From Steroidobacteraceae bacterium (GTDB lineage Bacteria > Pseudomonadota > Gammaproteobacteria > Steroidobacterales > Steroidobacteraceae): a DNA stretch of 64,000 nt. How positions within the stretch are numbered: position 1 is the first letter of the stretch; each line of letters begins with the position of its first letter. Position numbers and translations under genes: made by a program. The DNA lies in assembly GCA_025458865.1 (NCBI GenBank), contig JALORP010000011.1, positions 37,848 to 101,847 of the forward strand, in the 5' to 3' direction. A model generated the notes under the pieces. That model was given only the letters and a program-made list of their open reading frames with translations, was not told where the DNA came from and did no database searches. Positions 1 to 44,803 of this stretch are shown here, in pieces.

Positions 1-1676
1 GCCTCGAAGGCGTCGTTGCGCTCGGGCATGCCCTCGAGCGCCTGCGTGACGGCCCGCGTCCGCGTTCGCGCGTCGAACAGCCGGGCGTCGAGCTCGCGCA
101 GCGAACGGCGCGCGTGCCAGGCGCGCAGGCCGAAGTCGCGCTCGAGATCCCACTGCAGCACGCCGCGGGCGAGGCGCGCCTTCTCGCGCGCCTCGGCGAG
201 GGCAGGATCGTCGCCGCGTGCCGCGAGCTCGCCCTCGACGCCGGCGAGCATCGAGAGCAGGCGCTGCTCGTCGGCGTCCGCCAGCGCCGCGGGGTCACGA
301 TCGCGCAGCGCCGCGTCCAGCCGCGACTTGAGCGCATCCCGCCGGGCGTCGAGCGCCTCGACGTCCACGCCGCCCAGGACCTCCCCGGCCGCAGGGACCT
401 TGGCGTCGAAGGCGCGGCGGCGTGCATCCACCATGTGCGCGAACACGTCGAGGCTGTCGCGCCAGCCGGCGAGGTTGCGCCCCAGGAAATCGAGCGAGCG
501 GTAGTTCTTGAGCGCCTCCTGGAACTCGTGTCCAGCCAGCAGGTGGTAGAGGTAGCGCGACTCGGGCGCATCCGGCAGCGTCGCGAGCTGCCAGAACCAG
601 CCCTGCCCCTCCTCCTTGTCCGCGGTGAGCACCGCCTCAAGCATGCGCCCCGCGCGTATGGCGGCGATGGACTCGTCCAGGCGGGCGCGCTCCTCGTCGT
701 AGGCCCGGATCGCCCGCTCGTACAGCTCCGCGGCCTGCCCCTGGGCATCGAGCCTCGCATAAGCGTAGGGGACGGCGAGATAGGACTCCTGCACGGCGGC
801 ATCCAGCAGCCCGCGGCCCTGCAGCTCGAGCCAGGGAGCGAGCGCCTCCGAGTAGCGCTCGAGCGCCGCGTCGGCCCATCCGGCGCCGAGCAGCGCCTTG
901 CTCGACTGCGGGCCGGCCAGTCGCACCCGCTCGAGGACGGCTCGAGCCTCGAGCGGACGGTCCGCCTGCAGCATCGCGTAGGCGGCCGCAACGTTGGCCT
1001 TGTCCCGCAGCGACTTCAACTCCTCGCTGCTCGCGGCCATCTGGCCCACGGACTGCAGCAGCGCGAGGCCCTGGTCCACGCGCCCGGCGCGAACCAGCGC
1101 CACGCCGAGGTTGAAACGGCCGTACGCGGTCCACGCCTCCGGACCACTCCAGCCGGACAGCTCGGCCACCGCCTCGTCGTAGCGGCCCCGGTACATCAGG
1201 CCCTGCGCCAGCAGCAGCCGGCGCTCGGCGTCGAGCTCGGCCGGCAGCGAAGCCCCCGCGCGGCGCAGGGCGCGATCCGCCTCGTCGAAGTAGCTGCGGG
1301 CGTAGAGCACCCGGCCGAGGTGGAACCACGCGCGGTCGCGCACGGCCGGCGGCGTCGTCTCCCGCGCAAGCAGCCGCTCGAAGACCTCGGCCGCGCGGGC
1401 GTGCTGCCCGAAGGACAGGTACATGCCACCGAGCAACAGCTCGGCGTCGTCGGCGTGAGGCGCCATGTGCCCCTGGGCGGCATAGGACTCGGCGCGCACG
1501 ATCGCGTCGAAGTACTCGCCCTGGTAGAAGTGGAACAGGACGTCCCCGTAGTGAAGGTCGCCCAGCGCGACGGGCGGCAGGCCGCCGGGATCGGCAGCCT
1601 CCTGCGCCCGCGCAGCCGGCGCGGCGAAGCCGAGCGCCGCGGCGGCGAGCCACACCCCGAGCCGGCCGGCGCTCAC
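1..1676 (-). CDS. TPR-repeat exported protein, C-terminus beyond window
   Basis: This gene is absent from the ORF track. It begins with GTG at 1676, two bases after the stop of the upstream gene, and runs off the left edge after about 558 codons without a stop. The N-terminus is a signal peptide (hydrophobic stretch ending ARAQ, about residues 1-24). The body is helical and rich in TPR-like pairs with Ala/Leu/Tyr/Gly at repeat positions, for example around AWFHLGRVLYARSYFDEA. The more distal part is charged and probably coiled-coil. Tight spacing makes it the third gene of an operon with the anchored protein and the TlpA-like protein. TPR proteins usually scaffold protein complexes, and here that would be in the periplasm. 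The specific partner is unknown. The downstream neighbour is not visible. Confidence 0.8.
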   Translation of the reverse strand, partial: MSAGRLGVWLAAAALGFAAPAARAQEAADPGGLPPVALGDLHYGDVLFHFYQGEYFDAIVRAESYAAQGHMAPHADDAELLLGGMYLSFGQHARAAEVFERLLARETTPPAVRDRAWFHLGRVLYARSYFDEADRALRRAGASLPAELDAERRLLLAQGLMYRGRYDEAVAELSGWSGPEAWTAYGRFNLGVALVRAGRVDQGLALLQSVGQMAASSEELKSLRDKANVAAAYAMLQADRPLEARAVLERVRLAGPQSSKALLGAGWADAALERYSEALAPWLELQGRGLLDAAVQESYLAVPYAYARLDAQGQAAELYERAIRAYDEERARLDESIAAIRAGRMLEAVLTADKEEGQGWFWQLATLPDAPESRYLYHLLAGHEFQEALKNYRSLDFLGRNLAGWRDSLDVFAHMVDARRRAFDAKVPAAGEVLGGVDVEALDARRDALKSRLDAALRDRDPAALADADEQRLLSMLAGVEGELAARGDDPALAEAREKARLARGVLQWDLERDFGLRAWHARRSLRELDARLFDARTRTRAVTQALEGMPERNDAFE

Positions 1677-1678
1677 GG

Positions 1679-2293
1679 TCAATCCCACTCCCGGACCACG
1701 AACTCCGGCTGCAGCTTCTGTACGCGGTCGCTGATCCTGAGCTCGACGTACTTGGCGCCGACTCCCTTGTCGATCTCGAGCGTCGCTCCGCGCCGGTAGT
1801 CGCGTCCATGCGGGCCGACGCCCGTGAAGAACGCGGAGAGCTCGTGCTTGCCCGCCTTCAGGTTGCCGAGCCATACGCGGTGCACGCCGCCGCGCGCGAG
1901 CGCATCCACCTCGCGCCCGGTGTAGAGGTAGTTCGTCACTTCCTTGCCGTTCAGGACGATCTGAACGGAGTCGAGGCCGAAGAAGGTGCCGACATCCATG
2001 GAGACGAACACGGCCAACTGGGTATTCGCGGGGAACAGCAGTTCTTCCTCGAGCAGGAACAGGTCGCGGTTGAGATCCACGACCTGCTGCTTCAGCGCCC
2101 CCACCTCCCCGTCGAGCGAGCGGATGTCGGCAGGCGCATCGTCGGCGAGCGCCACCAGCGCGCCGAGCGCGAGCACGGCCGCGGCGATCGCGGCGATCCA
2201 GGCGCCGGAGCGCCGGCGGCGGTAGGTCGCGCGGAGCCGCCGCTCAGGGCCGGCCAGGTAGGCGCTTGCGATTCCCGGGCTGTCGATCGGCAT
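1679..2293 (-). CDS. Membrane-anchored coiled-coil periplasmic protein
   Basis: The 204-residue protein has a basic N-terminus (RRRR at about 25-28), one membrane segment at about residues 31-50, and a short coiled coil at about 58-86. A compact beta-rich periplasmic domain follows (about 92-204) with an Ig/PEGA-like look, containing VFVSMDVGTFFGLDSV and YVELRI. This predicts a type II inner-membrane anchor exposing a small beta domain. It lies 12 bases after the TlpA-like gene and two bases before the TPR gene, so the three are almost certainly co-transcribed. AGGAAAACAGGAC precedes the ATG. No family is recognised with confidence. A scaffold or substrate-presenting subunit of an envelope complex is inference. 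Confidence 0.8.
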   Translation of the reverse strand: MPIDSPGIASAYLAGPERRLRATYRRRRSGAWIAAIAAAVLALGALVALADDAPADIRSLDGEVGALKQQVVDLNRDLFLLEEELLFPANTQLAVFVSMDVGTFFGLDSVQIVLNGKEVTNYLYTGREVDALARGGVHRVWLGNLKAGKHELSAFFTGVGPHGRDYRRGATLEIDKGVGAKYVELRISDRVQKLQPEFVVREWD

Positions 2294-2305: not shown

Positions 2306-2914
2306 TCACTCGTCCAGCAGGCTGCGCAGGTCGGCGAGCATCGCCCGCTCCCCGCGCGCATCGAGTTCTCCATAGGCGAAGCGCACCACGCCGCCCCGGT
2401 CCACGAGCAGCAGCATCGGCAGCGCGCGCGGCCGGTAGACCTTGGCCACGGCCCTGCCCCTGTCGTGCAGCTGGGGGTAGCCCGCGCCCAGCGCGTCCGT
2501 GATGGAGCGCGCCTCGGCGGGATCCTCGTCGAGCACGATGCCGTAGGCCGCGAGCCCGGCCGCGGCATAGGTCGACCTCAGGCGCTCCAGCCGCTCGATC
2601 TCGTTGCGACAGGCGCCGCACCAGCTGCCCCAGAACAGCAGGGCGACCACCTCGCCACGGTGCTCCGACAGGCGGTGGTTGCGACCGTCGAGCGCCTTCA
2701 GCGCAAAGTCGGGCGCAGGGCCCGGCTCCGCGGCCAGGGCGGGAACCGATGGCCCGCCGGCCACGAGCAGCACCGCGGCGGCCAGCAACGCTGCCCACCG
2801 CCTGCCTGCACTGGCTCCACCATGCGACCGCGACGCCACCCTGCGCTCCCTTGCCTCGCCCGTGCCCTGACTGTCGCCATACGACTGCCCGAGCTTACCG
2901 CAGCAACGTGACAT
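2306..2914 (-). CDS. TlpA-like thioredoxin-fold protein
   Basis: A membrane or signal segment lies at about residues 40-62. It is followed by an AhpC/TSA-TlpA domain with the redox motif WCGAC at about 98-102 and the cis-proline stretch ALPMLLLVD at about 164-172. Family members are periplasmic disulfide reductases serving cytochrome c maturation or other exported thiol proteins. The ATG at 2914 gives 202 residues. A GTG at codon 26 preceded by AAGGGAG is a credible alternative start and would put the hydrophobic segment nearer the N-terminus. It is the first gene of the three-gene minus-strand operon and lies just downstream of a cluster of haem proteins, which fits a role in keeping CxxCH thiols reduced (inference). 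Confidence 0.85.
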   Translation of the reverse strand: MSRCCGKLGQSYGDSQGTGEARERRVASRSHGGASAGRRWAALLAAAVLLVAGGPSVPALAAEPGPAPDFALKALDGRNHRLSEHRGEVVALLFWGSWCGACRNEIERLERLRSTYAAAGLAAYGIVLDEDPAEARSITDALGAGYPQLHDRGRAVAKVYRPRALPMLLLVDRGGVVRFAYGELDARGERAMLADLRSLLDE

Positions 2915-2976: not shown

Positions 2977-4578
2977 TCAGGTAATCCGGCCATTCACGAT
3001 GGGATTGAAGGCAATGAGGCTGTCCTGGAGGGAGGCCGAGCCGAGTCCGTTGGTCCGGAAGAGCGTGGAGAAGCTCCCCTGCTCGCCGTGCAGGGCCAGG
3101 TAGTTCAGCACGACCGTCTCGACCAGCAGGTTCACGTTGTTCGCCGCCGGCGTGGAGGAGGTCTCCACCGAGCCATCGGGCCTGAACCAGCCGATCTGCT
3201 GGTGCTGTTCCGCAGGCCGGCCGTCGCCGGTGTAGAGCTGCGGCCGGCCGTTCGGGCTGTAAACCAGGAAGAACGACGCCGCCGTCTGCTGGTTGTCGCT
3301 GGTCCACATGAACTTGCCGCGGCCGTCCGCGGTGTTGTCCACCTGGCCGCTGGCCGACAACGAGCCGTCGCTGAAGACATAGAGCATCAGCGGCACGCCG
3401 CGGCGGGCGGCGTATTCGAGGCAGGCGCCCATGCAGCGACCCGCGCGGTAGTCGCGGATCTCGCCCGTGGCGCGGCCCTGGCCGTGGTAGTCGTACCCAC
3501 CCATGGTGATGGTCCCGGCGCCGGCGTAACCGTTGACCACCAGCTTCATCACCGCCGCGGTCTTGCGGAACTCGGCATCGGCGTCGAACTCGGCGCGGCT
3601 GAAGATGCCGCCTGCGCCGACGATGTCCGGGTCCAGTTCGGGATTCAGCGCCGAGGGGTCGCCGTACCGGTCGGCGAGGTCCGCCGACTTGACGTAATTG
3701 CAGCGGACCATTTCCTTGATCACTTCGTCGCGGGTGATCCCGGTGTTGACCCGGCCGAGCTTGCGGTCCGACAGTCGCTGGATGGACTCCATCACCGCCA
3801 CCGCGTCGTCCTGGTCCAGCAGGCCGACCAGCTTGCCGGTATCCACCAGGCCGGTGACGTCGCTGGTGCGGTCCACCTTCGTCGGGGTGACGGAGGGGTC
3901 GATCATCCCGGCCGGCGCCATGGAGTTGCCGCCCGACTCCGAGGCGCGCGAGCCGATCAGGGTCAGCAGCTCGCCGTCCGCGCCGGCCTTGTAGATGCCG
4001 TACATCGGGTTGTGCGGGTTGTTGCCGGTGTCGTTCTCCGAGCGCGCCGGGATGACGGCGCCGTTCGTGCCGGCGATGGCCATCGGCGAGACCCGGTCGA
4101 GAATGCCCCGCAGGAAGGCGCTGTCCGAGTGGAAGCGCAGGCCCAGCTGGTCGTTGATCCAGGTGTTGGTCGGGCTGGTCGGGTTCGGCGCGCCCGGGAC
4201 CATGTCGCCGGGCAGGCCCTGCCGGCCGTAGCCGGCGACGGAGAGCAGGTCGAGCTGGCCGCCGCGGCCGCCGGCGAGCACGTTCGAGCCAACCATGTTG
4301 GCGCCACCGGCAAGGTCGATGCAGATGAACGGGATGCGGCCCGCTCCCTGAACCGCGATGCCGCAGCGCTGCTTGAGCAGCTCCAGGTCGGGCGAGAGGG
4401 CCGCCTCGGCCGCACGCGGGTTGGCGAACAGGCCGAACACGGTCGGTGCGACCACCGTGGCGCTGCCGGCCATGAGCCCCTGCGCGATGAACTGGCGGCG
4501 CGTCACGGGCCGCGGATGGTCGGGCTGGCGGATCGGCTCGTCCGGGTGGAGGGGTCCGCGCCTGCGTTTCCTGAACAT
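2977..4578 (-). CDS. Tat-exported DUF1501 family protein
   Basis: The 533-residue protein starts with a twin-arginine signal (TRRQF at about 26-30, then a hydrophobic stretch and an Ala-rich cleavage region). Sequence after cleavage matches the DUF1501 family, which has an alkaline-phosphatase/sulfatase-like fold: PFICIDLAGGANMVGSN, AGTITMGGYDYHGQ and LMLYVFSDGS. Family members are exported and of unknown biochemical role, and are commonly encoded beside exported c-type cytochromes of the planctomycete-cytochrome type, as here. The longer ORF-track entry to 6099 is a run-on through the neighbouring gene in another frame. The ATG at 4578 has GAGG about nine bases upstream and sits 38 bases after the preceding gene. 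Tat export suggests cytoplasmic folding or cofactor loading. Confidence 0.88.
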   Translation of the reverse strand: MFRKRRRGPLHPDEPIRQPDHPRPVTRRQFIAQGLMAGSATVVAPTVFGLFANPRAAEAALSPDLELLKQRCGIAVQGAGRIPFICIDLAGGANMVGSNVLAGGRGGQLDLLSVAGYGRQGLPGDMVPGAPNPTSPTNTWINDQLGLRFHSDSAFLRGILDRVSPMAIAGTNGAVIPARSENDTGNNPHNPMYGIYKAGADGELLTLIGSRASESGGNSMAPAGMIDPSVTPTKVDRTSDVTGLVDTGKLVGLLDQDDAVAVMESIQRLSDRKLGRVNTGITRDEVIKEMVRCNYVKSADLADRYGDPSALNPELDPDIVGAGGIFSRAEFDADAEFRKTAAVMKLVVNGYAGAGTITMGGYDYHGQGRATGEIRDYRAGRCMGACLEYAARRGVPLMLYVFSDGSLSASGQVDNTADGRGKFMWTSDNQQTAASFFLVYSPNGRPQLYTGDGRPAEQHQQIGWFRPDGSVETSSTPAANNVNLLVETVVLNYLALHGEQGSFSTLFRTNGLGSASLQDSLIAFNPIVNGRIT

Positions 4579-4616
4579 GTCCCTGTGCCTCTTTTCAGTT
4601 TCCAAGTCGATCCGGG

Positions 4617-7091
4617 TCAATGCAGCAGCGTGGCAGCGCTGCCCAGCACCGCGGCGCAGCTGGCCTTGACCACCGTCGCGGTCCGACCTGCCGGGCAGCT
4701 GCCGCCGCAGGCGGTCAGCCGGCCCATCAACGACTCGAGCTCCGTGCGGATCTCGTCGGCCGACGGCTGGGTAGCGATGCCGCTGCCCACCGCCCTGCTC
4801 ACCAGCGGCCCGATCACCAGCTCGCGCTCCCCGGGCGTGTCGAAGGCCTGACCCGCGGGCGCCGCGAAGTTGAAGCCGGGGAAGAACGTGTCGCGCCTGC
4901 CCGGGTCGTCCACCAGCGAGTTGCAGACCTCGATGGCCATCTGCGCAACGCCGATCTGGTGCGAGGACAGGAAGCCCTCGATGCCGTCGGCGGTGGGCAG
5001 CTGCTGCTTGATCCGCTCGTAGGTCTCGTCCACGGCCGGGTCGGTGCGCGGCACGCCGGTCATCTCGGACATCGAGGCGGCGATGCGCTCGAAGGTCCTC
5101 ATGCCCACGCGCGGCTGCGGCTGGCCGTCCGCCGGCGGCGGCGGCGCGATCGGCGGCGCCTCGGTGTGGGTGTGCGAACGATTGCCGATTTGCTCGAAGC
5201 TCAGGAAGAACTGGTCGAGCGCCGGGCCCTTGTCGAGGCCGATGACCGTGCCGATCTGGGCGAGCGGGAAGCCCGTCGGCGACTCGTAGCCGGCGGCATT
5301 CACCGTCGCGTCCACCGAGACGAAGGCCTGGCCGACCTTGGCCTCGGCGCCGTTGATGCCGAGACGCACGCCCTTCAGCCGCAGCCCGTCGAGCGTCGCC
5401 GGCGCGGCCCCTGGCGTGAGCCTGACGACCGACGGCTTCTCGAACAGGTAGCCGTAGCTGTCGAACTGGCTCGCCTCGAGCAGCACGTAGCTGTCCGGGA
5501 TGTCGGTGAGGTGCGCAACGCTGAACAGCATGTAGAAGCGCTCGCCGACGCCTGCCTCGAAGTTCTGCAGGATCTGCGGCTGCGTGAGCGCGCGGTTGTG
5601 GACCGCGACCAGCCGGATGACGCCCTGCCACTGGCGGTCGCCGGAGACCTCGTTGCCCAGGACCAGCGCGAAGGTGTCGTTCCAGTCGGCGAGTGAGCCG
5701 CCGCCCTGCGGATCGCTGCCGGTCACCAGCTCGCCGTTCACGTAGATGCGGCGGCCCTCGACGGGGTCGTAGGTCGCCACCACGTGCTGCAGCGTCGCCT
5801 GCAGGACCTGCCGCGCCGAGGGCGTGGACAGCTGCGGCGCGCCGTTGGCGCCGGTCGTGCTGCTGCGGTTCATGAAGTCGTAGTCGTACATCGTCTGGCC
5901 GAGCGTGAAGTTCCGGGCGGTCGTGCCGCCGGAGTAGCTGACGATGTACGCGTCCTCCTGCACGACGTTGGCCGGCGCGACCCAGGCCTCGACGGAGTAC
6001 TCCCCGGTCGCCTTGATCAGGTCGTGCAGCTTGCGGCTGCCGGTCGTCGAGGACTGCAGCTTGCCGCTCCTCACGTTGACGCCCCAGCCTCCGACCCACT
6101 CCACGTCACCGGACATGTTGAGGTTGGCCGCCGGCTCGACGCCGCTGGTGTCGTAAGCGACCGTACCGGTGCCGGTCTTGAACTCGAACAGCGCGATGAC
6201 GCTGCTGTCGAAGCGGTTGCCGCCGCTCGCGACCGTGCCTTCGTAGAGCGACAGCGCCTTGGACACGAGGAGCGTCGGGTCGACCTGGGTCAGCGGGACG
6301 CTGTTAGCGAACTGGCGGATCGCCGCTTCCATGGCGTTCGCGTTCTGCTGGCAGTCGCCCCAGCAGTTGTGGAACTCCTCGCGCAGGCGGACCACGAAGC
6401 GCGACAGCTCGGGCGCGTCGAGGTTGATTCGAGGCCGGGCCGCCGAGTAGGCGATGTCCACGTCGCGCTCAGCGAAGAACGGCGACTGCGCCGGCTGGCC
6501 GCCGGAGACGTGGCAGCGCGAGCAGTTCTGCTCGAGCAGCGGATACACCGTGGTGGCGAAGCTGCCCGGGCTGGCCGGGAAGGACTTGCTGGCGCCGACG
6601 TCGCGCAGCGGCGGCGGCTGCAGCGCGATCTCGCGCGTGCCGCCGACGGTCGCGCCGGCCCAGTTGCGGATCCACACCGTCAGCTGGTCGGCGCACGCGG
6701 AGTCGGCCCCGAGCCAGCAGTTGTGGCCGCCGCCCACCTTGGAGACCATCCGCGAGCCGCGCGGGTCGTTGAGGTTGACGACGCCGTTGGCGGCCTCGTA
6801 GGCGAGATTGATGTCGTCCCGGCGCGCGAACTGCGGCGACTGCCCGCCCTGGCCGTGGCAGGAACCGCAGCGGTTGTTGGCCTGCAGGTTGTCCCAGACG
6901 TTCAGCTTGAACGACTGCACGTCCTGGCTCGCGGGCGGCGGCCCGCTGTAGCCGGCCGGCGGCGGCGCGCTGGTGACCGGGTTCTCCTGGACGGGGGCCC
7001 CGCCGCCGCAGGCGGCCGCGAGCCAGCCGATCGCTGCGACTGTCAGTGCGGCGCGCAGGCCGCGGAGCGAGAAGGAATCCTTGGTGTTCAT
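4617..7091 (-). CDS. Dihaem c-type lipoprotein with LamG/concanavalin-like domain
   Basis: The 824-residue protein has a lipobox (LAAAC, Cys28) and two haem c attachment motifs, CGSCH at about 75-79 and CSRCH at about 190-194, each followed by a similar repeat unit (FARRDDINLAY and FAERDVDIAY). These are tandem cytochrome-like modules. A LamG/concanavalin-A-like jelly-roll follows at about residues 300-480, then a long C-terminal region of unknown fold containing a Pro-rich linker. The product should be anchored in the outer or inner membrane facing the periplasm or outside, with carbohydrate- or protein-binding capacity coupled to electron transfer. A strong GAGGAG Shine-Dalgarno precedes the ATG, 11 bases after the upstream cytochrome gene. 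It forms an operon with the DUF1501 gene. Confidence 0.85.
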   Translation of the reverse strand: MNTKDSFSLRGLRAALTVAAIGWLAAACGGGAPVQENPVTSAPPPAGYSGPPPASQDVQSFKLNVWDNLQANNRCGSCHGQGGQSPQFARRDDINLAYEAANGVVNLNDPRGSRMVSKVGGGHNCWLGADSACADQLTVWIRNWAGATVGGTREIALQPPPLRDVGASKSFPASPGSFATTVYPLLEQNCSRCHVSGGQPAQSPFFAERDVDIAYSAARPRINLDAPELSRFVVRLREEFHNCWGDCQQNANAMEAAIRQFANSVPLTQVDPTLLVSKALSLYEGTVASGGNRFDSSVIALFEFKTGTGTVAYDTSGVEPAANLNMSGDVEWVGGWGVNVRSGKLQSSTTGSRKLHDLIKATGEYSVEAWVAPANVVQEDAYIVSYSGGTTARNFTLGQTMYDYDFMNRSSTTGANGAPQLSTPSARQVLQATLQHVVATYDPVEGRRIYVNGELVTGSDPQGGGSLADWNDTFALVLGNEVSGDRQWQGVIRLVAVHNRALTQPQILQNFEAGVGERFYMLFSVAHLTDIPDSYVLLEASQFDSYGYLFEKPSVVRLTPGAAPATLDGLRLKGVRLGINGAEAKVGQAFVSVDATVNAAGYESPTGFPLAQIGTVIGLDKGPALDQFFLSFEQIGNRSHTHTEAPPIAPPPPADGQPQPRVGMRTFERIAASMSEMTGVPRTDPAVDETYERIKQQLPTADGIEGFLSSHQIGVAQMAIEVCNSLVDDPGRRDTFFPGFNFAAPAGQAFDTPGERELVIGPLVSRAVGSGIATQPSADEIRTELESLMGRLTACGGSCPAGRTATVVKASCAAVLGSAATLLH

Positions 7092-7102
7092 GCCCTTTCT
7101 CC

Positions 7103-8284
7103 TCACTCGCCCATGCAGAAAGCGGCGGACTCGGCGAACACCTGCCTCAGCCGGTACCCGCCAGAGCGGAACGAGGACACCATCGAGGCGACCTGCGCGC
7201 GGTCGGCGGCGTCTGTCGGCGTGCGCAGGCACACCGTGCGGAAAACCTTCTCGACCTGGCAGCTGGCGAATGCCTCGCTGTTGCCAAGCTCCGCGCCCAG
7301 CGAGGCGGCGCCGGCGCCACCCCCGGGCAGCGACGGGCTCCAGCCGAGCAGCGCGTTCTGGCCCGCGCGCCAGTAGTTGTCCCAGCGGTCGTTGCGGGTG
7401 ATATAGCCCGGACGGAAGGTGTCGGCGTTGATCGAGTACTTCGGGCGCACCTGCCCGGGCGTGTAGATCATGCGGCCCTGGTCCTGGTCCCAGTCGTGGT
7501 AGGCGAAGGCCTGCGCCATCGGATCCATGCCGGCGTGGCAGGTGACGCAATTGTTCAGGAACAGCCGGCTGTCGCCGCCGGGGCTGCGGCTCACGTCCTG
7601 CCGGATGCGGTCGGCCTGGCGCGAGCCGTCCTGCAGTTCCTCGAGGTCGTGGCACAGGTGGTTGAGGAGCGTGAAGCGGAACATCGCGCGGTTGGTGCCG
7701 GCGACGAAGAAAGACTCGGCTGCCGCGCGGGTGGTCATGACGCCGGCGGCGGCCTCGACCGGGAAGCCGTAGGTCCCCGACTGGGTTCGCCGCTGAAGCA
7801 CGCTCTTGAGGTCGGCGTGCCGGCGTTCGAGCGCCTCGTAGTGCGCGTTGCTCGAGACGCTCGGCGCGGGCACCCCGGACACTCCGTTGCCGACGTACAG
7901 TATGTCGGCGGAGAGCAGCTCGTTCATCGGCACGTCGTCGCGCACCATGCCGATGAAGGTGGCGACGTAGTCGTTGAGAGGTGCGAACACCGTGCGGTCG
8001 CGGTTGGTCCACGGCATCGCGAGGTTCTTGAGGGTGACCGAGTAGAACGCCGGGTGCTCCATCGCACGGAAGGCCGCGTCCTGCGACCGTCCCGCCGAGA
8101 TGTCCGCGGCCATCGCGTCGAGCGTCGCGGCGGCCGCCGGCACGCCTGCGATGCGGTCGTGCATGCGCTTGGCCTGCTCGCGCGGCCCGGCCTGGGCGGC
8201 GCCGGCCGCGAGCGTCGCGGCTATGAGCCCGCACGCTGCGATGCGGATCGCATGGCCGTCGAAGATGCTTCGGTCGCGTTTCAT
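7103..8284 (-). CDS. Exported monohaem protein, DUF1588/PSCyt-like
   Basis: The 393-residue protein has a signal peptide ending about residue 32 (AAQAG) and one haem c motif, CVTCH at about 246-250, followed by AGMDPMAQAF. That last feature resembles the cytochrome module of DUF1588/DUF1585-type proteins, in which CxxCH precedes a DP(L/M)G/A sequence. Most of the chain is helical. It is the first gene of the minus-strand haem operon, with a candidate promoter about 45 bases upstream of the start. The longer ORF to 8374 includes upstream non-coding codons. ATG 8284 was chosen because it opens directly into the signal peptide. The electron donor or acceptor is unknown. Family assignment from pattern alone is moderate. 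Confidence 0.82.
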   Translation of the reverse strand: MKRDRSIFDGHAIRIAACGLIAATLAAGAAQAGPREQAKRMHDRIAGVPAAAATLDAMAADISAGRSQDAAFRAMEHPAFYSVTLKNLAMPWTNRDRTVFAPLNDYVATFIGMVRDDVPMNELLSADILYVGNGVSGVPAPSVSSNAHYEALERRHADLKSVLQRRTQSGTYGFPVEAAAGVMTTRAAAESFFVAGTNRAMFRFTLLNHLCHDLEELQDGSRQADRIRQDVSRSPGGDSRLFLNNCVTCHAGMDPMAQAFAYHDWDQDQGRMIYTPGQVRPKYSINADTFRPGYITRNDRWDNYWRAGQNALLGWSPSLPGGGAGAASLGAELGNSEAFASCQVEKVFRTVCLRTPTDAADRAQVASMVSSFRSGGYRLRQVFAESAAFCMGE

Positions 8285-8326
8285 TTGTGTGCTCCGTTCA
8301 CTCACGGCGTCCTTCAGACGGGGCCG

Positions 8327-8355
8327 ACTATAGGCAGGCGTTTCGCGCGACGTAA
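8327..8355 (-). promoter_or_regulatory. Candidate sigma70 promoter for the haem operon
   Basis: On the minus strand, TATAGT (8327-8332) is preceded after 17 bases by TTACGT (8350-8355). The -10 matches five of six consensus bases and the -35 is poor. It lies 43 bases upstream of the ATG at 8284, a reasonable leader length. No operator is evident. Confidence 0.4.
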
Positions 8356-8537
8356 TGTCTCTGAACTGCGACATTCCACGATCGGCGCGTTCACGCTAGG
8401 GTAGAAGCGTGATCTGCAGTGCGCGGAAGTGCTGTGCGCTGTGTCCCGAGGCCTGAAAGCCCCGGAAAAGTGTGAGCCCGTTGGCAGTCCGGGCGCGGTC
8501 GACGCAGACCGGCCGGGACCTCCAGGAGACGATCGAG

Positions 8538-11143
8538 ATGCGCGTCACGAAATGGAAAAATGCCGTAGCGGCGGTCGCGGCGCTCGCGCTTGCGGGCTGC
8601 GAGAGCAGCACCGACGGCAGCCTCGACATCGGCGGCGGCCAGTCGCCCGACCCGGTCGTGCTCGACTTCCCCGTAGCCTACGTAAAGCGCGCGCTGCCCA
8701 CCGGCACCGAGGACGTGCGGCGCCTGCGGAGCTTCCAGGCGGGCGCGGACCTGTGGCTGCGCGACCGCGCGGCGCCCTCCGCCTCCGAGCGCAACATCAC
8801 CGGCGGCGTGACCGGCGGCGAGTGGGACCTGCGCGACGTGGACGTCTCCTACGATGGCAACCGGCTGCTGTTCTCCATGCGCCCGCCGCTCATCGATGGC
8901 GCCGAGGAGAGCGAGCAGCCGACCTGGAACGTCTGGGAGTACGACCGAACGACCGACACGCTCCGGCGCGTGATCGCCTCCGATCTCGTCGCGGAGGAAG
9001 GCCACGACGTCGCGCCGCACTACCTCCCGGACGGGCGCATCGTCTTCTCCTCGACGCGCCAGCGGCAGTCGAAGGCCACGCTCATCGACGAGGGCAAGCC
9101 GCAGTTCCCCGCGCTCGACGAGGATCGTCGGGAGTGGGCCTTCGTGCTGCACGTGATGAATTCGGACGGCACGGGCATCCGCCAGATCTCCTTCAACCAG
9201 AGCCACGACCTCGACCCGGCCGTGATGAACGACGGGCGGATCGTGTTCTCGAGATGGGAGAACGCCTCGGGCAGCTCGATCCACCTCTATACGGTGCGGC
9301 CGGACGGCGCGGGGCTCGAGCTCCTCACAGCCACGACACCGGCAGCGGCGGCTCGGTCGTACAGTTCCTGCAGCCGCGGCCGAGGCCCGACGGGCGGGTG
9401 CTGGCGCTGATCCGTCCCTTCAACGGCACCGAGCAGGGCGGCGACGGCGTGCTGATCGACACCGCGGGCTACGTCGAGATCGCCCAGCCCGTGCTCGCCA
9501 ATGCCGGCGCTGCCGGCCCGGCGCAGGTGAAGGTCACCGGTAACGACGTGCGCACGGTCCCCGGGCTCTCGCCCGGCGGCCGCTATGCCTCGCTGTTCCC
9601 GCTCTGGGACGGCACCGACCGCGTGCTCGTCAGCTGGACCCTGTGCCGCGTCCTGCTCGACGGACGCCAGCTCCCCTGCAGTTCGTCGGACGCGACGAAC
9701 CCGCAGGCCGTGGTGGCGCCGCCGCTGTACAGCGTGTTCATGTGGGACCCGCGGGACGGCACGCAGCGACCCGTGCTGCAGCCGCTCGAGGGCACCATGT
9801 ACACGGATGTCGTCGCGATGCAGCCGCGCACCCTGCCGCCGGTCATCCTGGACGCGGTCGCGGGCGTGGACTACGACTCGGATCTCGCCACTGAGAACGT
9901 CGGGCTGCTGCACATCAGGAGCGTCTACGACCTGGATGGCACGGACAACGCGCCCGGCGGCATCACCGCCCTGCGCGACCCGGCCCAGGCGACGGCCGAC
10001 CAGCGCCCGGCGCGCTTCCTGCGCATCGAGAAGGCGGTGGGACTGCCGGACGACGAGGTACGCGACTTCCGCGGCACGGCCTTCGGCGTCGCCGGCGGCC
10101 TGGGCATGCGCGAGATCCTCGGCTACGCGCCGATCGAGCCGGACGGCTCGGTCAAGGTGAAGGTGCCGGCCGGCGTGCCCTTCGGCATCACCGTGCTGGA
10201 CCGCGACGGCAAGCGGATCTCGCCGCGCCACCTCAACTGGCTGCAGCTGCGGGCGGGCGAGGTGGTGACCTGCAACGGCTGCCACGTGCCAGCGGGCCAG
10301 CAGCCGGCCGGCCAGCCGCGCGTATCGCACGGCCGCAGCGGCCTCACGGCGAGCGTCAATCCCGGCGCGCCGACGACCGGCTCACCCTTCCCCAACACGG
10401 TTCCCGCGCTGTTCGCGGACCAGGGCGAGACCATGGCGGAGACGCGCAGCCGCATCAGCTGCCAGACTGATTGCGCGGCGCTGCTGCCCTCGGTCGACGT
10501 CGTCTACGAGGACGTCTGGACCGACGAGACCGCGGCCGGGCGCGCGCCCGACGCCCCCTTCGCGTTCCGCTACTCGGCCCTCGCCACGCCGGCGCCGACG
10601 AACCTCGCCTGCCAGCAGGAGTGGTCGTCGCTGTGCCGGATCGTCATCCACTACCCGGACCACCTGCAGCCGCTGTGGGACCGGTTGCGGCAGGTGCTCG
10701 ACGTGGACGGGGTCACGGTCCTGGAGGACCGCAGCTGCCTCTCCTGCCACAGCCCGCGCGACGCCGACGGCCTCGTGCGCGTGCCGGAGGGGCAACTCGA
10801 CCTGACCGGCGAGCCCTCGCCCGAGCAGGCCGACCACCTGGTCTCCTTCCGCGAGCTTATGTTCACTGACAACGCCCAGGAAGTTAACATGGGCGCACTG
10901 CAGGACATCCTGGTGCCCGGACCGCCGGACCCGGTCACCGGCCAGCCGACCCTGGTGCCCGTGCCGGTCGCCCCCTCGATGAGCGGCGGCGGCGCGCGGG
11001 CCTCAGGCCGGTTTTTCAGCCGGTTCGAGGCGGGCGGGTCGCATGCGGGTTTCCTCGATCCGGCCGAACTGCGACTCATCGCCGAGTGGCTCGACATCGG
11101 TGGACAGTATTACAACGATCCCTTTGCAGCGCCGGCGGACTGA
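8538..11143 (+). pseudogene. HzsA-like PD40/dihaem lipoprotein, frameshifted near 9327
   Basis: The gene begins with ATG at 8538 (AGGAG ten bases upstream) and encodes a lipoprotein signal (LALAGC). WD40-like PD40 beta-propeller blades follow (SYDGNRLLFSM, LPDGRIVFSS, MNDGRIVFSR). The reading frame of 8538 continues to about 9326 at LYTVRPDGAGLELL. Homologous sequence then resumes one frame away at SHDTGSGGSVVQFLQPRP and continues to the stop at 11143. The second part carries two haem c motifs, CNGCH (10271-10285) and CLSCH (10736-10750), and the shape of the hydrazine synthase alpha-subunit-like family widely found outside anammox bacteria. The frame change implies loss of 3n+1 bases, perhaps about ten from a YGxx-like stretch. 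If it is an assembly error, the intact product would be about 870 residues. It is divergent from the haem operon. Confidence 0.8.
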
Positions 11144-11248: not shown

Positions 11249-11977
11249 ATGAGGTTCCTCCTCGTCGCGGCGGTCCTCCTGCTGCTCGCGCTGCCAGCCA
11301 CCGCCGCCGGACCGGAGGTCACCGTCGCGGAGCCCTTTATCGAGCTTCGCACCGGACCGGGCCGGGGCTACCCGGTCACTCAGGTGGTCAAGCGGGGCGA
11401 GGCCGTGACCATCGAGAAGCGCCGCACCGACTGGTTCAAGGTCGCGGATGCCGATGGCCGCAGCGGCTGGGTGCACCGCTCGGCCATGCTGGCGACGCTG
11501 ACCGAGGCCGGCGAGCCCCTGCCGATCGATGATCCGGGCCGCGAGGACTTCGGCGAACACCGCCGCGAGCTCGGCGTGCTGGCCGGGGACTTCGAAGGCG
11601 CCAACGTCATCACCGTCTACGGCGCCTGGGCCTTCAACCCGCACCTGTCCGCGGAGCTGCGCCTGTCGCAGATCCTCGGCAGTTTCTCGGACGGGGAGAT
11701 GGCCACTCTCGGGCTCACGCACGTATTCAGGCCCGACTGGCGCGTCCAGCCCTTCGTCGGCCTCGGCACTGGCGTGATCGACATCCAGCCGAAGGCCTCG
11801 CTGGTCCAGACGGAGGCGCGCACCGACCAGGTCGCCTACGCCGGACTGGGCGTCAAGGGTTACCTGTCGCGGCGCTTCATCCTGCGCGCAGAGTTCAACA
11901 AGTACGTCGTGTTCACCGACCGCGACGACAACGAGGAAGCCGACGAATGGAAGCTGGGTTTCGCATTCTTCTTCTGA
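11249..11977 (+). CDS. SH3b-domain outer-membrane beta-barrel protein
   Basis: A signal peptide (residues about 1-20) is followed by a bacterial SH3 domain (about 22-85: FIELRTGPGRGYPV, GWVHRSAML). A C-terminal beta-barrel segment of alternating hydrophobic strands ends in Phe (FAFFF), the usual outer-membrane targeting signature. Known SH3b modules bind peptidoglycan or peptide ligands, so this protein could link barrel and wall. Length is 242 residues. No strong Shine-Dalgarno is seen. The start was chosen because it opens into the signal peptide. Its 3' end overlaps the next gene by 31 bases, indicating translational coupling. It is the first gene of the cluster leading to DUF4266/DUF3570. 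Confidence 0.82.
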   Translation: MRFLLVAAVLLLLALPATAAGPEVTVAEPFIELRTGPGRGYPVTQVVKRGEAVTIEKRRTDWFKVADADGRSGWVHRSAMLATLTEAGEPLPIDDPGREDFGEHRRELGVLAGDFEGANVITVYGAWAFNPHLSAELRLSQILGSFSDGEMATLGLTHVFRPDWRVQPFVGLGTGVIDIQPKASLVQTEARTDQVAYAGLGVKGYLSRRFILRAEFNKYVVFTDRDDNEEADEWKLGFAFFF

Positions 11978-12624
11978 GCGCCGTCCTGGCGCTGCCCGGC
12001 TGCGCCTGGGTGCGCGGCGGCGAGGTCCCGGAGACGGCCGAGGCCGACGCCGGGGAATCCGAGGCCGTGCCCGAGGTCATCTCGCCCCAGGTCGAGCGGC
12101 GCCCGGTCAAGCCGGCGAAGATCGACACCGAGAACTGGGAGGCCGGCGCCTACATCGGGTCGCTGTCCGTCGAGGACTTCGAGGTCAACAAGGTCCTGGG
12201 CGGGCGCATCGCCTTCCACATCAGCGAGGACTTCTTCGCGGAGGCGATCTTCGGCCAGTCGGACGCCGGCATCTCGAGCTACGAGCGGCTGTCGGGTTCC
12301 GCGCCACTGCTGACCGATAGTGAGAGGGAGTTCAAGTACTGGAGCCTCGGGTTCGGATGGAATGTGCTCCCAGGAGAGGTGTTTCTCGGCGGGTCTCGCG
12401 CCTACAACAGCGCGGTCTACCTGACCGCAGGCGCGGGCAGCACCACTTTCGCCGGCGATGATCGTTTCACGGTCACCCTCGGTGCCGGTGCGAGGCTGCT
12501 GCTGACGGACTGGCTGGGGCTGCACCTCGACATCCGGGACCACATCCTCGAGGTCGACGTGGTGGGTACGAACAAGGAAACCCACAACTTCGAGGCGACG
12601 GTCTCGCTGACGGCGTTCTTCTGA
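11947..12624 (+). CDS. Outer-membrane beta-barrel lipoprotein
   Basis: The 225-residue protein has a lipoprotein signal (LALPGC, Cys about 19), a charged Glu/Pro-rich linker (about 25-60), and a beta-barrel domain with amphipathic strands finishing TVSLTAFF. It resembles the small outer-membrane beta-barrel domain proteins found in myxobacteria and gammaproteobacteria. It overlaps the preceding barrel gene and is followed 31 bases later by a TlpA gene. Having both a lipidated N-terminus and a barrel ending in Phe is unusual but has precedent in this family. The function is unknown, and its position suggests an outer-membrane component of the same assembly as the SH3b barrel. Confidence 0.8.
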   Translation: MEAGFRILLLSAVLALPGCAWVRGGEVPETAEADAGESEAVPEVISPQVERRPVKPAKIDTENWEAGAYIGSLSVEDFEVNKVLGGRIAFHISEDFFAEAIFGQSDAGISSYERLSGSAPLLTDSEREFKYWSLGFGWNVLPGEVFLGGSRAYNSAVYLTAGAGSTTFAGDDRFTVTLGAGARLLLTDWLGLHLDIRDHILEVDVVGTNKETHNFEATVSLTAFF

Positions 12625-12655: not shown

Positions 12656-13171
12656 ATGCTGACCACTCGCCGCATCTTCCTCGGATCGGCCTTCGCGACG
12701 GCCGCGGCCTGCGCCGCGCCCGCGGCATTCGCTGCCGGCGCCGCCGGCAGCGCCACGCCCGCGCCTGACTTCGAGCTGCCGCTGCGCTCCGGCGGCGCGG
12801 TCAAGCTCGCGGACCTTCGCGGCCAGGTCGTGATGCTCAACTTCTGGGCCAGCTGGTGCGCGCCCTGCCGCCAGGAGTTCCCGATCCTCGACGAGATGTA
12901 CCGGAAGTACCAGCCCATGGGGTTCACGCTCCTCGGCGTCAACGTCGAGAGCGAGACCAAGGATGCGGAGCGGTTCCTCTCGGCCATGCCCGTGTCCTTC
13001 CCCATCGCCTTCGACCGGGAGAACGCGGTGAGCGGCCAGTACGGCGTCTCGGCGATGCCGACGACGCTGCTCGTGGACCGCAAGGGCAACGTCCGCTGGC
13101 TGCATCGCGCCTACAAGCCCGGCGACGAGAACGAATACATCAGCCAGGTCCGCCGGCTGCTGCGGGAGTGA
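12656..13171 (+). CDS. TlpA-family periplasmic thioredoxin
   Basis: The 171-residue protein carries TRRIFLGSAF at its N-terminus, which could act as a weak Tat or Sec signal, and an Ala-rich cleavage region near residue 33. The thioredoxin fold follows with WCAPC at about 70-74 and the cis-Pro segment SAMPTTLLVDRKG. This is a classical TlpA/ResA-type thiol-disulfide reductase active outside the cytoplasm. Downstream by two bases is the Cys-ending DUF4266 lipoprotein, a possible substrate (inference). An AAGGAGG Shine-Dalgarno is present about 11 bases before the start. The pair with DUF4266/DUF3570 is a recurrent arrangement in proteobacteria from general knowledge. Confidence 0.9.
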   Translation: MLTTRRIFLGSAFATAAACAAPAAFAAGAAGSATPAPDFELPLRSGGAVKLADLRGQVVMLNFWASWCAPCRQEFPILDEMYRKYQPMGFTLLGVNVESETKDAERFLSAMPVSFPIAFDRENAVSGQYGVSAMPTTLLVDRKGNVRWLHRAYKPGDENEYISQVRRLLRE

Positions 13172-13173
13172 GC

Positions 13174-13401
13174 ATGAAGAACCTCCGTCCGGCCCTCTGG
13201 CTCGCCATCGCGCTCGGCACCGCCGGCTGCGGCCCGGTCGAGCCCTGGGTCAAGCCCTACGAGCGCGAGCGCCTCGCGGATCCCATCATGAGCTGGGACC
13301 GCGACCCCGTTTCCGCGTCCTACATGAAGCACGTCTACGAGTCCCGAGAAGGCTCCCGCGGCGCCATGGGCGGAGCCGGCGGCGGCTGCGGCTGCAACTG
13401 A
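13174..13401 (+). CDS. DUF4266 small lipoprotein
   Basis: The 75-residue protein has a lipobox (GTAGC, Cys19), a conserved middle section (VEPWVKPYERERLADPIM) and a glycine-rich tail ending GGGCGCN. This architecture is characteristic of DUF4266. The terminal CGC is invariant-looking and may bind metal, form a disulfide or serve as a thiol for the adjacent TlpA protein. It starts two bases after the TlpA stop and ends two bases before the DUF3570 start, so the three genes are translationally linked. The biochemical role is unknown. Confidence 0.88.
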   Translation: MKNLRPALWLAIALGTAGCGPVEPWVKPYERERLADPIMSWDRDPVSASYMKHVYESREGSRGAMGGAGGGCGCN

Positions 13402-13403
13402 CC

Positions 13404-14540
13404 ATGCGCCGGCACGCCCTCCTCGCCCTCTCATGCTGCGCGGCCCTCTCGGCGCCTGCGCAGGCAGGCGTGCTGGCGGAGGACCGCGCCGACGTCATGT
13501 ACCACCTCTACGACGGCGGCGGCGTCGAGATCGACGGCCCCTCGATGCTGGTGCGCAAGAAGTTCGCCGAGAAGTACGCCGTCAGCGCCAACTACTACGT
13601 GGACCTGGTCTCGAGCGCATCGATCGACGTGGTGACGACCGCGAGTCCGTACAAGGAGGAGCGCAAGGAATACAGCCTCGGTGGCGAGTACCTGCGCGGC
13701 AAGTCGATCTACACGGTCGGGTTCACGAACAGCAAGGAGAACGACTACGAGGCCAACGCGGCGAGCGTGTCCATCTCGCAGGACATGTTCGGCGACCTGA
13801 CGACGCTGCAGCTGTCGTTCTCGCGCGGCTGGGACCAGGTGTTCCGCCGGGGCGACGATACCTTCGAGGACCGCCTGGACCGTCGCGTGTACGGCGCGGA
13901 CCTCACGCAGGTGGCCACGAAGTCGCTCATCCTCGGCCTGTCATGGGAAACGGTCACCGAGGAAGGGTTCCTCAACAACCCCTACCGCAGCGTCCGCTAC
14001 CTGGACCCGGAGGCCGCCTCGGGCTACTCCTACCAGGCGGAGGTCTACCCGCGAACCCGCACCGGCAACGCGCTCGCCGTCCGCGGCCGGCACTTCCTGC
14101 CCTGGAGGGCCGCCGCACAGGCGGAATACCGGTGGTACTCGGACAGCTGGGGCGTCCTCGGCCACACCGTCGAGCTGTCCTACACCCAGCCTTACGGCGC
14201 GCGGTGGGTCTTCGATGCCCGCTACCGCTGGTACACGCAGGACGGCGCCGACTTCTACTCCGACCTGTTCCCGCGCGAGGACTTCCAGAATTTCCTGGCG
14301 CGCGACAAGGAACTGGCGACCATGACGAGCCAGACCATAGGCATCGGCGCGAGCTACGAGCTGCGGCTGCCGGGCATGGACTTCCTGGAGAAGACGACCG
14401 TCAACTTCCGCTACGACTACATGCTCTTCGACTACGACGACTTCCGCGACCTCCGCGTCACGGGCGTCCCGCCCGGCACCGAGCCGTTCTACGACTTCAG
14501 CGCGAACGTCGTGCAGCTGTTCTTCTCGGGCTGGTTCTGA
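13404..14540 (+). CDS. DUF3570 outer-membrane beta-barrel protein
   Basis: The 378-residue protein has a signal peptide cleaved near AQAG (about residue 22), then a long run of amphipathic beta strands rich in Tyr and Trp, ending in LFFSGWF with the C-terminal Phe expected for outer-membrane insertion. Sequence features such as DRADVMYHLYDGGGVEIDGPS and VRKKFAEKYAVSANYYVD fit DUF3570. The family is regularly encoded with DUF4266, TlpA and ApbE. It is thought to be part of an envelope redox or flavin-linked system, though no activity is proven. It converges with apbE with a single base between stops. Confidence 0.9.
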   Translation: MRRHALLALSCCAALSAPAQAGVLAEDRADVMYHLYDGGGVEIDGPSMLVRKKFAEKYAVSANYYVDLVSSASIDVVTTASPYKEERKEYSLGGEYLRGKSIYTVGFTNSKENDYEANAASVSISQDMFGDLTTLQLSFSRGWDQVFRRGDDTFEDRLDRRVYGADLTQVATKSLILGLSWETVTEEGFLNNPYRSVRYLDPEAASGYSYQAEVYPRTRTGNALAVRGRHFLPWRAAAQAEYRWYSDSWGVLGHTVELSYTQPYGARWVFDARYRWYTQDGADFYSDLFPREDFQNFLARDKELATMTSQTIGIGASYELRLPGMDFLEKTTVNFRYDYMLFDYDDFRDLRVTGVPPGTEPFYDFSANVVQLFFSGWF

Positions 14541-14541
14541 C

Positions 14542-15516
14542 TCAGGGCGGCGCGAGTCCCGACGAGTACAGCACCTTTCCGCCGGCGGTCACCAGCACGG
14601 CGTCCACGTCCCGGAGCCTCTCGATGAGCGCGAGGCCGCGCTCGGCTCCCAGCACGAAAACGCCGGTGGAAAGGCCGTCGGTCGTCGTGGCGTCCGGCCC
14701 GATGATGGTCACGCTGCGCAGTTCCCCGGCGCTGCGGCCCGTCCGCGGATTGATGATGTGGTGGTACCGCTGCCCGTCCTCGTCGAAGTAGCGCTCGTAG
14801 TCGCCCGAGGTCGAAAGCGCGGCGTCCACGAGCGGAATCCGGGAAACGACGCGCTGCCGGTCGTCCGGGTGGCGGATGCCGATCACCCAGGGCCGGCCGA
14901 GCCGGTCGCCGAGGATGCGCGTGTCGCCGCCGGCGGTGACGGTGCCGTGCCGGATGCCCTTCTCCGCCAGGATCGCGACGCCGCGGTCCACGGCGTAGCC
15001 CTTCGCAATCCCGCCGAGGTCGATGCGAACGCCGTCCTGCGTGAAGCGCACGGTGGAGGCCGCGCGGTCCACGATCACGTGGCGCCAGTTCACCGCGGGC
15101 AGGTGCGCGGCGATCTGGGCGTCGTCCGGGCGCTGTCCGGCGCGGTAGTCGTAGAGGTAGCCGACGCTCGCGTAGGTGATGTCGAAGGCGCCGTCGGTGA
15201 GCACCGAGAACTCGAGGGCGCGAGCGATCAGTGCGGCGAGTTCGGGAGCGACCGCCACCGGCCCGGCGGCCGCGCGCGCATTCACCTGGGAGAGCTCGCT
15301 CTCCGGCTTGTAGTGCGACATCAGCCGGTCCACGCGGTGCATCTCGGCGAACACCGCGGCCATCGCGGCATCCGCGACCGCGGCGTCCTCGTGCCAGGCC
15401 TCGACCGCCACGCGCGTACCCATGATGGCTTCCTCGCGTACGCGCCACTCCGCCGCGGCGGGCGCGGCTGCAAGCAGCGATGCGGCCGCGAGCGCCGCCG
15501 ACAGCAGTGCTTTCAT
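14542..15516 (-). CDS. apbE: FAD:protein FMN transferase
   Basis: The 324-residue exported enzyme transfers FMN from FAD to Ser/Thr residues of extracytoplasmic proteins. The signal peptide is residues 1-22. Recognisable family motifs are GGIAKGYAVDR, TAGGDTRILG, HHIINPRTGRS and the metal/FAD-binding stretch TDGLSTGVFVLG, so it looks catalytically complete. It lies convergent to and one base from DUF3570, matching the common association of ApbE with DUF3570/DUF4266. No protein in the window shows an obvious flavinylation motif that I could identify, so the acceptor is either elsewhere or atypical. ATG 15516 opens directly into the signal peptide, and the longer ORF to 16827 is an antisense run-on. 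Confidence 0.93.
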   Translation of the reverse strand: MKALLSAALAAASLLAAAPAAAEWRVREEAIMGTRVAVEAWHEDAAVADAAMAAVFAEMHRVDRLMSHYKPESELSQVNARAAAGPVAVAPELAALIARALEFSVLTDGAFDITYASVGYLYDYRAGQRPDDAQIAAHLPAVNWRHVIVDRAASTVRFTQDGVRIDLGGIAKGYAVDRGVAILAEKGIRHGTVTAGGDTRILGDRLGRPWVIGIRHPDDRQRVVSRIPLVDAALSTSGDYERYFDEDGQRYHHIINPRTGRSAGELRSVTIIGPDATTTDGLSTGVFVLGAERGLALIERLRDVDAVLVTAGGKVLYSSGLAPP

Positions 15517-44801: not shown

Positions 44802-44803
44802 CG

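Follow-up and report, generated by a model that had tools for sequence, protein, structure and literature searches.

A gammaproteobacterial haem-protein gene cluster associated with an Agl/Glt-like envelope motor module

Introduction

In planctomycete genomes, genes for DUF1501 proteins occur in pairs with genes for DUF1588/DUF1585 cytochromes. A 64,000-nucleotide stretch of DNA from a Steroidobacteraceae bacterium (GenBank assembly GCA_025458865.1, contig JALORP010000011.1), referred to here as the window, raises the question of what a set of this appearance is doing in a gammaproteobacterium. The window spans bases 37848-101847 of contig 28 in a genome of 3.09 Mb, 105 contigs and 87% completeness. 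It holds three co-directional minus-strand genes, encoding a protein exported by the twin-arginine translocation (Tat) pathway, a dihaem LamG lipoprotein and a monohaem protein (together, the triad), which face a plus-strand gene for a PD40/HZS_alpha lipoprotein resembling the alpha subunit of hydrazine synthase (HzsA-like). A preliminary description had placed the four genes and read their five haem motifs (CGSCH, CSRCH, CVTCH, CNGCH and CLSCH) exactly as we find them, and had taken the products, one of them assigned to DUF1501, for an undescribed extracytoplasmic redox or polymer-processing complex of four proteins.

We find that the four genes are, as far as gene neighbourhoods can tell, a slice of an outer-envelope system of roughly 20 genes. 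The explanation that we favour, at slightly better than an even chance, is that they form the haem-bearing part of one modular, proton-motive-force-driven, Glt/Tol-like envelope machine that occurs in many Gammaproteobacteria. That these ~20 genes form one system is well supported; its task we infer.

Results

The triad is conserved within a larger unit

A profile of the Tat-exported protein, scanned against public genomes, identified at least 562 relatives, of which the best 80 were kept. After removal of duplicates 130 loci were scored, each gene being counted only where the contig reaches far enough. The triad was complete wherever this could be assessed (LamG gene in 123/123 loci, monohaem gene in 121/121), and the HzsA-like gene was present in 102 of 113. 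Further to the right, the OMP_myx barrel gene was found in 35/37 loci, DUF4266 in 32/33 and DUF3570 in 30/31. The limit drawn around four proteins did not hold, as the conserved unit extends rightwards to about position 15516 and leftwards beyond the end of the window. The functional reading changed with it, because the adjoining envelope-motor module and the barrel, thioredoxin, DUF4266, DUF3570 and ApbE genes had been missed.

The presence of the Tat-exported protein closely followed that of p204, a marker of the left-flank core module. In an order-wide sample of 147 genomes, p204 was present in all 66 genomes with the Tat protein, often unlinked, and the Tat protein in none of the 59 lacking p204. 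In a class-wide sample of 321 genomes the figures were 42/44 and 2/249, and a profile search for p204 returned the same number of genomes, 72. One of the two class exceptions (G147) is a fragment at a contig end; the other (G179) is a complete genome without p204 that has kept the triad, with its HzsA gene in pieces and no module 2 or barrel genes adjacent. p204 adjoins the Tat gene in some lineages and sits beyond DUF3570/ApbE in others, and at one locus (L169) the modules are rearranged with linkage kept. Genomes with p204 that lack the Tat protein often carry the core and a triad-free version of the right-flank genes in one run (L177-L179, L181-L183, L185, L191); the HzsA-like protein is larger in these genomes, and several of them have ApbE in the run as well. 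In this variant a cysteine-containing lipoprotein of about 170 amino acids is encoded between the HzsA-like and SH3-barrel genes (L181 5757-6275, L183 13532-14041, L189 12229-12738).

The closest relatives of the Tat protein, at 80-87% identity, come from gammaproteobacterial and Steroidobacteraceae metagenome genomes, and almost all of the best 80 bear gammaproteobacterial names (Alteromonas, Paraglaciecola, Marinobacter, Microbulbifer, Candidatus Thiodiazotropha, Sedimenticola and others). Matches in a phylum-wide genome sample were confined to the same class. Two labels stand out: L123 (CAMAVY010000010.1), a metagenome assembly labelled Klebsiella pneumoniae, holds the whole cluster and is probably mislabelled, and L145 (JAKITT010000017.1), named Candidatus Polarisedimenticolaceae, has cluster and core, either through transfer or because the contig is contaminated or wrongly named.

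The left flank encodes an Agl/Glt-like core

On L151, the genes to the left of the Tat gene, all on the same strand, encode a thioredoxin, p204, two TPR proteins, an 84-amino-acid protein, ExbB, two ExbD proteins and an AgmX/TonB-like protein. The AgmX/PglI C-terminal domain scored above its cut-off (67.8 vs 40 bits), and the ExbB and both ExbD domains were recognised, giving the ExbB plus two ExbD motor with an AgmX/GltG-like transducer that is expected of an Agl/Glt core complex. TPR proteins are present that may correspond to GltC, GltD and GltE. The GltG and GltE equivalog scores fall far below their cut-offs (40.9 vs 650 and 34 vs 225 bits), so the core module is probably not the gliding machine itself; of the group A glt part of the Myxococcus gliding machinery, only an OMP_myx_plus barrel was recognised. 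The 84-amino-acid protein (L151 13986-14240) carries a GNxELPK...VPWK signature, belongs to no family and was seen in 43 of the loci examined. Past the AgmX end of the operon, left of the window, lie two TonB-dependent-receptor-like genes and a gene for a 520-amino-acid lipoprotein (L151 2553-10038); genes similar to this set flank the cluster in L090 (Aliiglaciecola).

Haem motifs are conserved in three protein families

Only seven CxxCH motifs occur in a six-frame translation of the whole 64 kb. Conservation of the cluster's motifs among relatives is a stronger argument than this rarity: 39/40 LamG proteins and 35/39 HzsA-like proteins have two motifs and 41/41 monohaem proteins have one, the pattern expected of c-type cytochromes in all three families. 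The LamG domain predicted earlier is genuine (Table 1). The haem region of the same protein is an internal duplication of two modules, each with CxxCH followed by HNCW, which align with a score of 122 (shuffled sequences: mean 24, maximum 56); the histidine of HNCW is a candidate second axial haem ligand. The monohaem protein had been called DUF1588-like. Its haem motif is conserved and the family likeness is weak: relatives match DUF1585 (21/23) and DUF1588 (18/23) mostly weakly, and in the window the DUF1585 score is below the gathering score.

For the divergently encoded lipoprotein, the HzsA resemblance and the two motifs described earlier hold. Its gene is not one intact open frame here; in relatives it is a single frame of about 860-920 amino acids. 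The protein contains a TolB-like propeller, and its family profile matches 5c2v_A (E=4.5e-16).

The Tat-exported protein is not a recognisable DUF1501 member

The assignment of the Tat-exported protein to DUF1501 could not be sustained. None of 25 family members matched Pfam DUF1501 (PF07394), even at E=10, and the DUF1501 profile had no match in the window's own genome. In an hhalign comparison of the family with nine true DUF1501 proteins, for which the shallow profiles limit the power, the probability was 2.5% and the GGxDxH motif alone aligned. A sequence search of the PDB returned nothing meaningful. The predicted structure (predicted local distance difference test score, pLDDT, 78.6) gave weak fold matches (best E=1.5e-3, TM about 0.2), the 50 best PDB matches listed all being of the alkaline-phosphatase superfamily (phosphatases, sulfatases and kin); a remote relation may exist. 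As a control, in a smaller sample the Tat protein was accompanied by true DUF1501 proteins in 5/12 genomes and by p204 in 10 of the same 12 (hand count). Compared with the planctomycete pairs, the arrangement of an exported Tat protein beside a DUF1588/DUF1585-like haem protein is the same; the differences are the missing DUF1501 match and the weak matches of the haem protein.

The right flank encodes barrels and putative redox proteins

Downstream of the HzsA-like gene follow two barrel genes, a thioredoxin gene and genes for DUF4266, DUF3570 and ApbE (Table 1). Clusters of DUF3570, DUF4266, thioredoxin and ApbE genes have been proposed as electron-transfer systems (Meheust et al. 2021, PMC8238504). 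As in those clusters, DUF3570, a CxC-containing DUF4266 protein, a thioredoxin-like protein and ApbE are found together here; unlike them, no DsbD gene was seen here and the canonical DUF3570 motif is mostly absent. LamG, DUF1501 and hydrazine synthase are unmentioned in PMC8238504. A flavinylated DUF3570 protein is expected to carry two [ST]GA[ST] motifs. Among 100 triad-linked DUF3570 proteins, 68 had no such flavinylation motif, 32 had one and none had two, with ApbE often nearby; because this motif is largely missing, flavin is probably not a universal carrier in the system. An exchange of flavin for haem, which predicts that the triad and the DUF3570 motif are anticorrelated, was considered, and the counts do not bear it out: a single motif occurs in 32/100 proteins alongside the triad and in 6/12 where the triad is absent.

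Table 1 Features of the conserved unit within the window.
Feature	Position	Strand	Evidence or remark
TPR protein, part of core module; 630 amino acids in full, extends beyond left window end	3..1676	-	Pfam TPR; full gene on L151
p204, core-module marker	1679..2293	-	no Pfam/NCBIfam family above cut-off
TlpA/ResA-like thioredoxin (TlpA1), exact start uncertain	2306..2914	-	AhpC-TSA E=1.4e-20; same place in close relatives
Tat-exported protein, 533 amino acids	2977..4578	-	invariant twin arginine RR at residues 27-28
Dihaem LamG lipoprotein, 824 amino acids	4617..7091	-	PF13385 E=7.5e-23; lipobox Cys28
CSRCH, second haem site of LamG protein	6510..6524	-	conserved
CGSCH, first haem site of LamG protein	6855..6869	-	conserved
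Monohaem exported protein, 393 amino acids, weakly DUF1585/DUF1588-like	7103..8284	-	profile matches in relatives
CVTCH, haem site of monohaem protein	7535..7549	-	conserved 41/41
Divergent intergenic region between two operons, 253 bp	8285..8537	.	gene boundaries
HzsA-like dihaem lipoprotein gene, frameshifted	8538..11143	+	PF18582 E=2e-13
CNGCH, first haem site of HzsA-like protein, then SHGR	10271..10285	+	conserved motif
CLSCH, second haem site of HzsA-like protein	10736..10750	+	absent from 4/39 relatives
SH3-domain and outer-membrane beta-barrel protein	11249..11977	+	SH3_3 E=5e-11, OMP_b-brl E=2.8e-6
Outer-membrane barrel, OMP_myx_plus family	11947..12624	+	TIGR04565 151.7 bits vs cut-off 60
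TlpA/ResA-like thioredoxin (TlpA2)	12656..13171	+	ResA-type NF002854 E=1.2e-32
DUF4266 lipoprotein, C-terminal CxC conserved	13174..13401	+	PF14086 E=1.8e-23
DUF3570 protein without canonical [ST]GA[ST] flavinylation motif	13404..14540	+	PF12094 E=4.8e-40
ApbE flavin mononucleotide (FMN) transferase, convergent with DUF3570	14542..15516	-	PF02424 E=1.2e-85

Discussion

The gene content and order of these loci, their co-occurrence, the conserved haem motifs and the export and lipid-attachment signals are observed features. We favour a single envelope machine because the triad is complete in testable loci, p204 accompanies the Tat protein almost without exception, linkage persists despite rearrangement, motor domains and CxxCH motifs are recognised and conserved, and the LamG haem region is duplicated. 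Such a machine would have three modules: the Tat protein, dihaem LamG lipoprotein and monohaem protein (module 1); the HzsA-like dihaem lipoprotein, two outer-membrane barrels, thioredoxin, DUF4266, DUF3570 and ApbE (module 2); and an ExbB-ExbD-ExbD proton-channel motor, AgmX/TonB-like transducer, TPR proteins and p204 as an Agl/Glt-like core complex (module 3). Proton flow through ExbB/ExbD would drive the AgmX-like transducer and the TPR chain, which, like their counterparts in Glt/Nfs and Tol systems, could move or open an outer-membrane assembly that the module 2 barrels and lipoproteins make up. The haem module would lie on the outer-membrane side and perform or relay a redox step on a substrate that the LamG domain, the propeller and the phosphatase-like fold would bind at the cell surface; the thioredoxins might serve haem attachment, disulfides or reductant supply. 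The LamG domain and phosphatase-like fold hint, speculatively, that the ligand is a polymer or carries phosphate or sulfate groups. We consider it plausible, at somewhat under an even chance, that this is a distinct class of proton-motive-force-driven envelope machine in Gammaproteobacteria, in which a motor of the Glt/Tol kind would power or gate a haem complex at the surface and thereby energise outer-membrane redox chemistry mechanically.

An Agl/Glt core complex has been reported in Gammaproteobacteria, its function there being stated as unknown (Luciano et al. 2011, PMC3169522). Our loci share with it an ExbB, two ExbD proteins, an AgmX/GltG-like transducer and TPR proteins in one gammaproteobacterial run; they differ in that this run is joined to haem lipoproteins, a Tat protein, barrels, thioredoxins and DUF3570/DUF4266, and cytochromes go unmentioned in the text of PMC3169522. 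The parallels with Tol-Pal are ExbB/TolQ-, ExbD/TolR- and TonB_C/TolA-like proteins, a YbgF-like TPR protein and the TolB-like propeller of the HzsA-like protein, whereas two ExbD proteins, a haem-bearing propeller protein, barrels and a Tat protein set the present system apart, and no Pal was recognised in it.

Several observations weigh against a single machine. The core and the haem genes lie apart in many genomes, where co-occurrence is all that ties the two together, and the Fisher values for the Tat protein against p204 (6e-23 in the order, 1.5e-30 in the class) ignore shared ancestry. Within the order, 22 of the 88 genomes that have p204 carry the core and lack the triad, and second, diverged ExbB-ExbD-AgmX-TPR-p204 copies are found as paralogues away from any triad or module 2 gene (L186-L188, L190, L192, L195). 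Some loci have the triad alone, lacking HzsA, and in most of these the LamG protein bears one haem motif. In the window itself, 10 bases near 9327 that are present in the three closest relatives are absent, which shifts the HzsA-like frame; this may be a genuine lesion or an error of the assembly. The machine as a whole, with its haem attachment and localisation, is predicted from sequence and modelled structure.

A rival reading is an outer-membrane electron conduit or redox enzyme system. Electrons would pass across or along the outer membrane through the barrels together with the HzsA-like, LamG and monohaem proteins, DUF3570, DUF4266 and thioredoxin would act as further carriers, and the motor would be a frequent neighbour with a separate task. 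This would make sense of a single block that combines barrels, thioredoxins and ApbE with five conserved haems, and it agrees with the proposal of Meheust et al. for clusters of the DUF3570/DUF4266/thioredoxin/ApbE kind. We nevertheless consider it unlikely: the five haems are spread across three proteins, no multihaem cytochrome of the MtrAB kind inside a barrel was seen, and an unrelated motor would leave the near-absolute dependence on p204 without an explanation. The hosts include marine heterotrophs as well as sulfur-oxidising symbionts, a range that no one type of respiration would suit.

We give a rather poor chance to a machine that assembles or exports a surface polymer, comparable to the Nfs spore-coat system of Myxococcus. 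The motor would push the polymer through the barrels, to be modified or cross-linked by the haem proteins and the phosphatase-like protein. Nfs-type machines unite the same kind of motor with polymer transport (PMC3858216), LamG has a concanavalin-like fold, and the fold of the Tat protein is weakly like phosphatases and sulfatases; yet the conserved block showed no gene for a glycosyltransferase or for polymer export.

A hydrazine synthase identity for the HzsA-like protein, with the cluster as a nitrogen-cycle enzyme, is next to impossible, despite PF18582 (HZS_alpha) in 22/22 relatives and a whole-length fold match of the model (pLDDT 66.8) to HZS alpha (E=1.3e-25), and we dropped this identity on a test of the tyrosine ligand. 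In Kuenenia hydrazine synthase, Tyr591, four residues after the CxxCH histidine, ligates the catalytic haem (PMC12607021). A tyrosine four residues after the first CxxCH histidine was found in 0/39 HzsA-like relatives, so hydrazine production is not expected; SHGR follows the motif in 37/39, and no HZS beta or gamma gene was recognised in the block. Homologues of HZS alpha outside anammox bacteria, without key residues, have been reported from Planctomycetota and Desulfobacterota (PMC12758564, 2025). The HzsA-like protein shares with HZS alpha (PMC12758564; 5c2v) a beta-propeller, the HZS_alpha middle domain, a C-terminal haem domain and two CxxCH motifs, and differs in having SHGR for the catalytic tyrosine, no recognised beta/gamma partner and another gene context.

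The idea of an apparently undescribed extracytoplasmic haem-protein set in proteobacteria is borne out by conserved co-occurrence and conserved CxxCH motifs. Its pieces are known separately, namely the core (2011), the DUF3570/DUF4266/thioredoxin/ApbE group (2021) and HZS-alpha homologues (2025), and in the literature searched their joining appears to be new. A literature search (AgmX/ExbD or hydrazine synthase with Marinobacter or Alteromonas; DUF1501/1585/1588/1592), which covered few subscription papers, found no description of the cluster. The loci bring together the Glt core, DUF3570/DUF4266/ApbE clusters and HZS-alpha-fold proteins, each treated apart in the literature found, and reveal an HZS-alpha-fold lipoprotein without the catalytic tyrosine that is widespread in Gammaproteobacteria. 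The question of what the gammaproteobacterial core does, left by Luciano et al. 2011, thereby gains concrete haem-module partners in culturable bacteria; a motor-driven surface haem complex, if true, would give that core a function.

Elsewhere in the window, positions 41676-47334 resemble a heavy-metal resistance-nodulation-division (RND) efflux operon, as judged from the sequence by eye.

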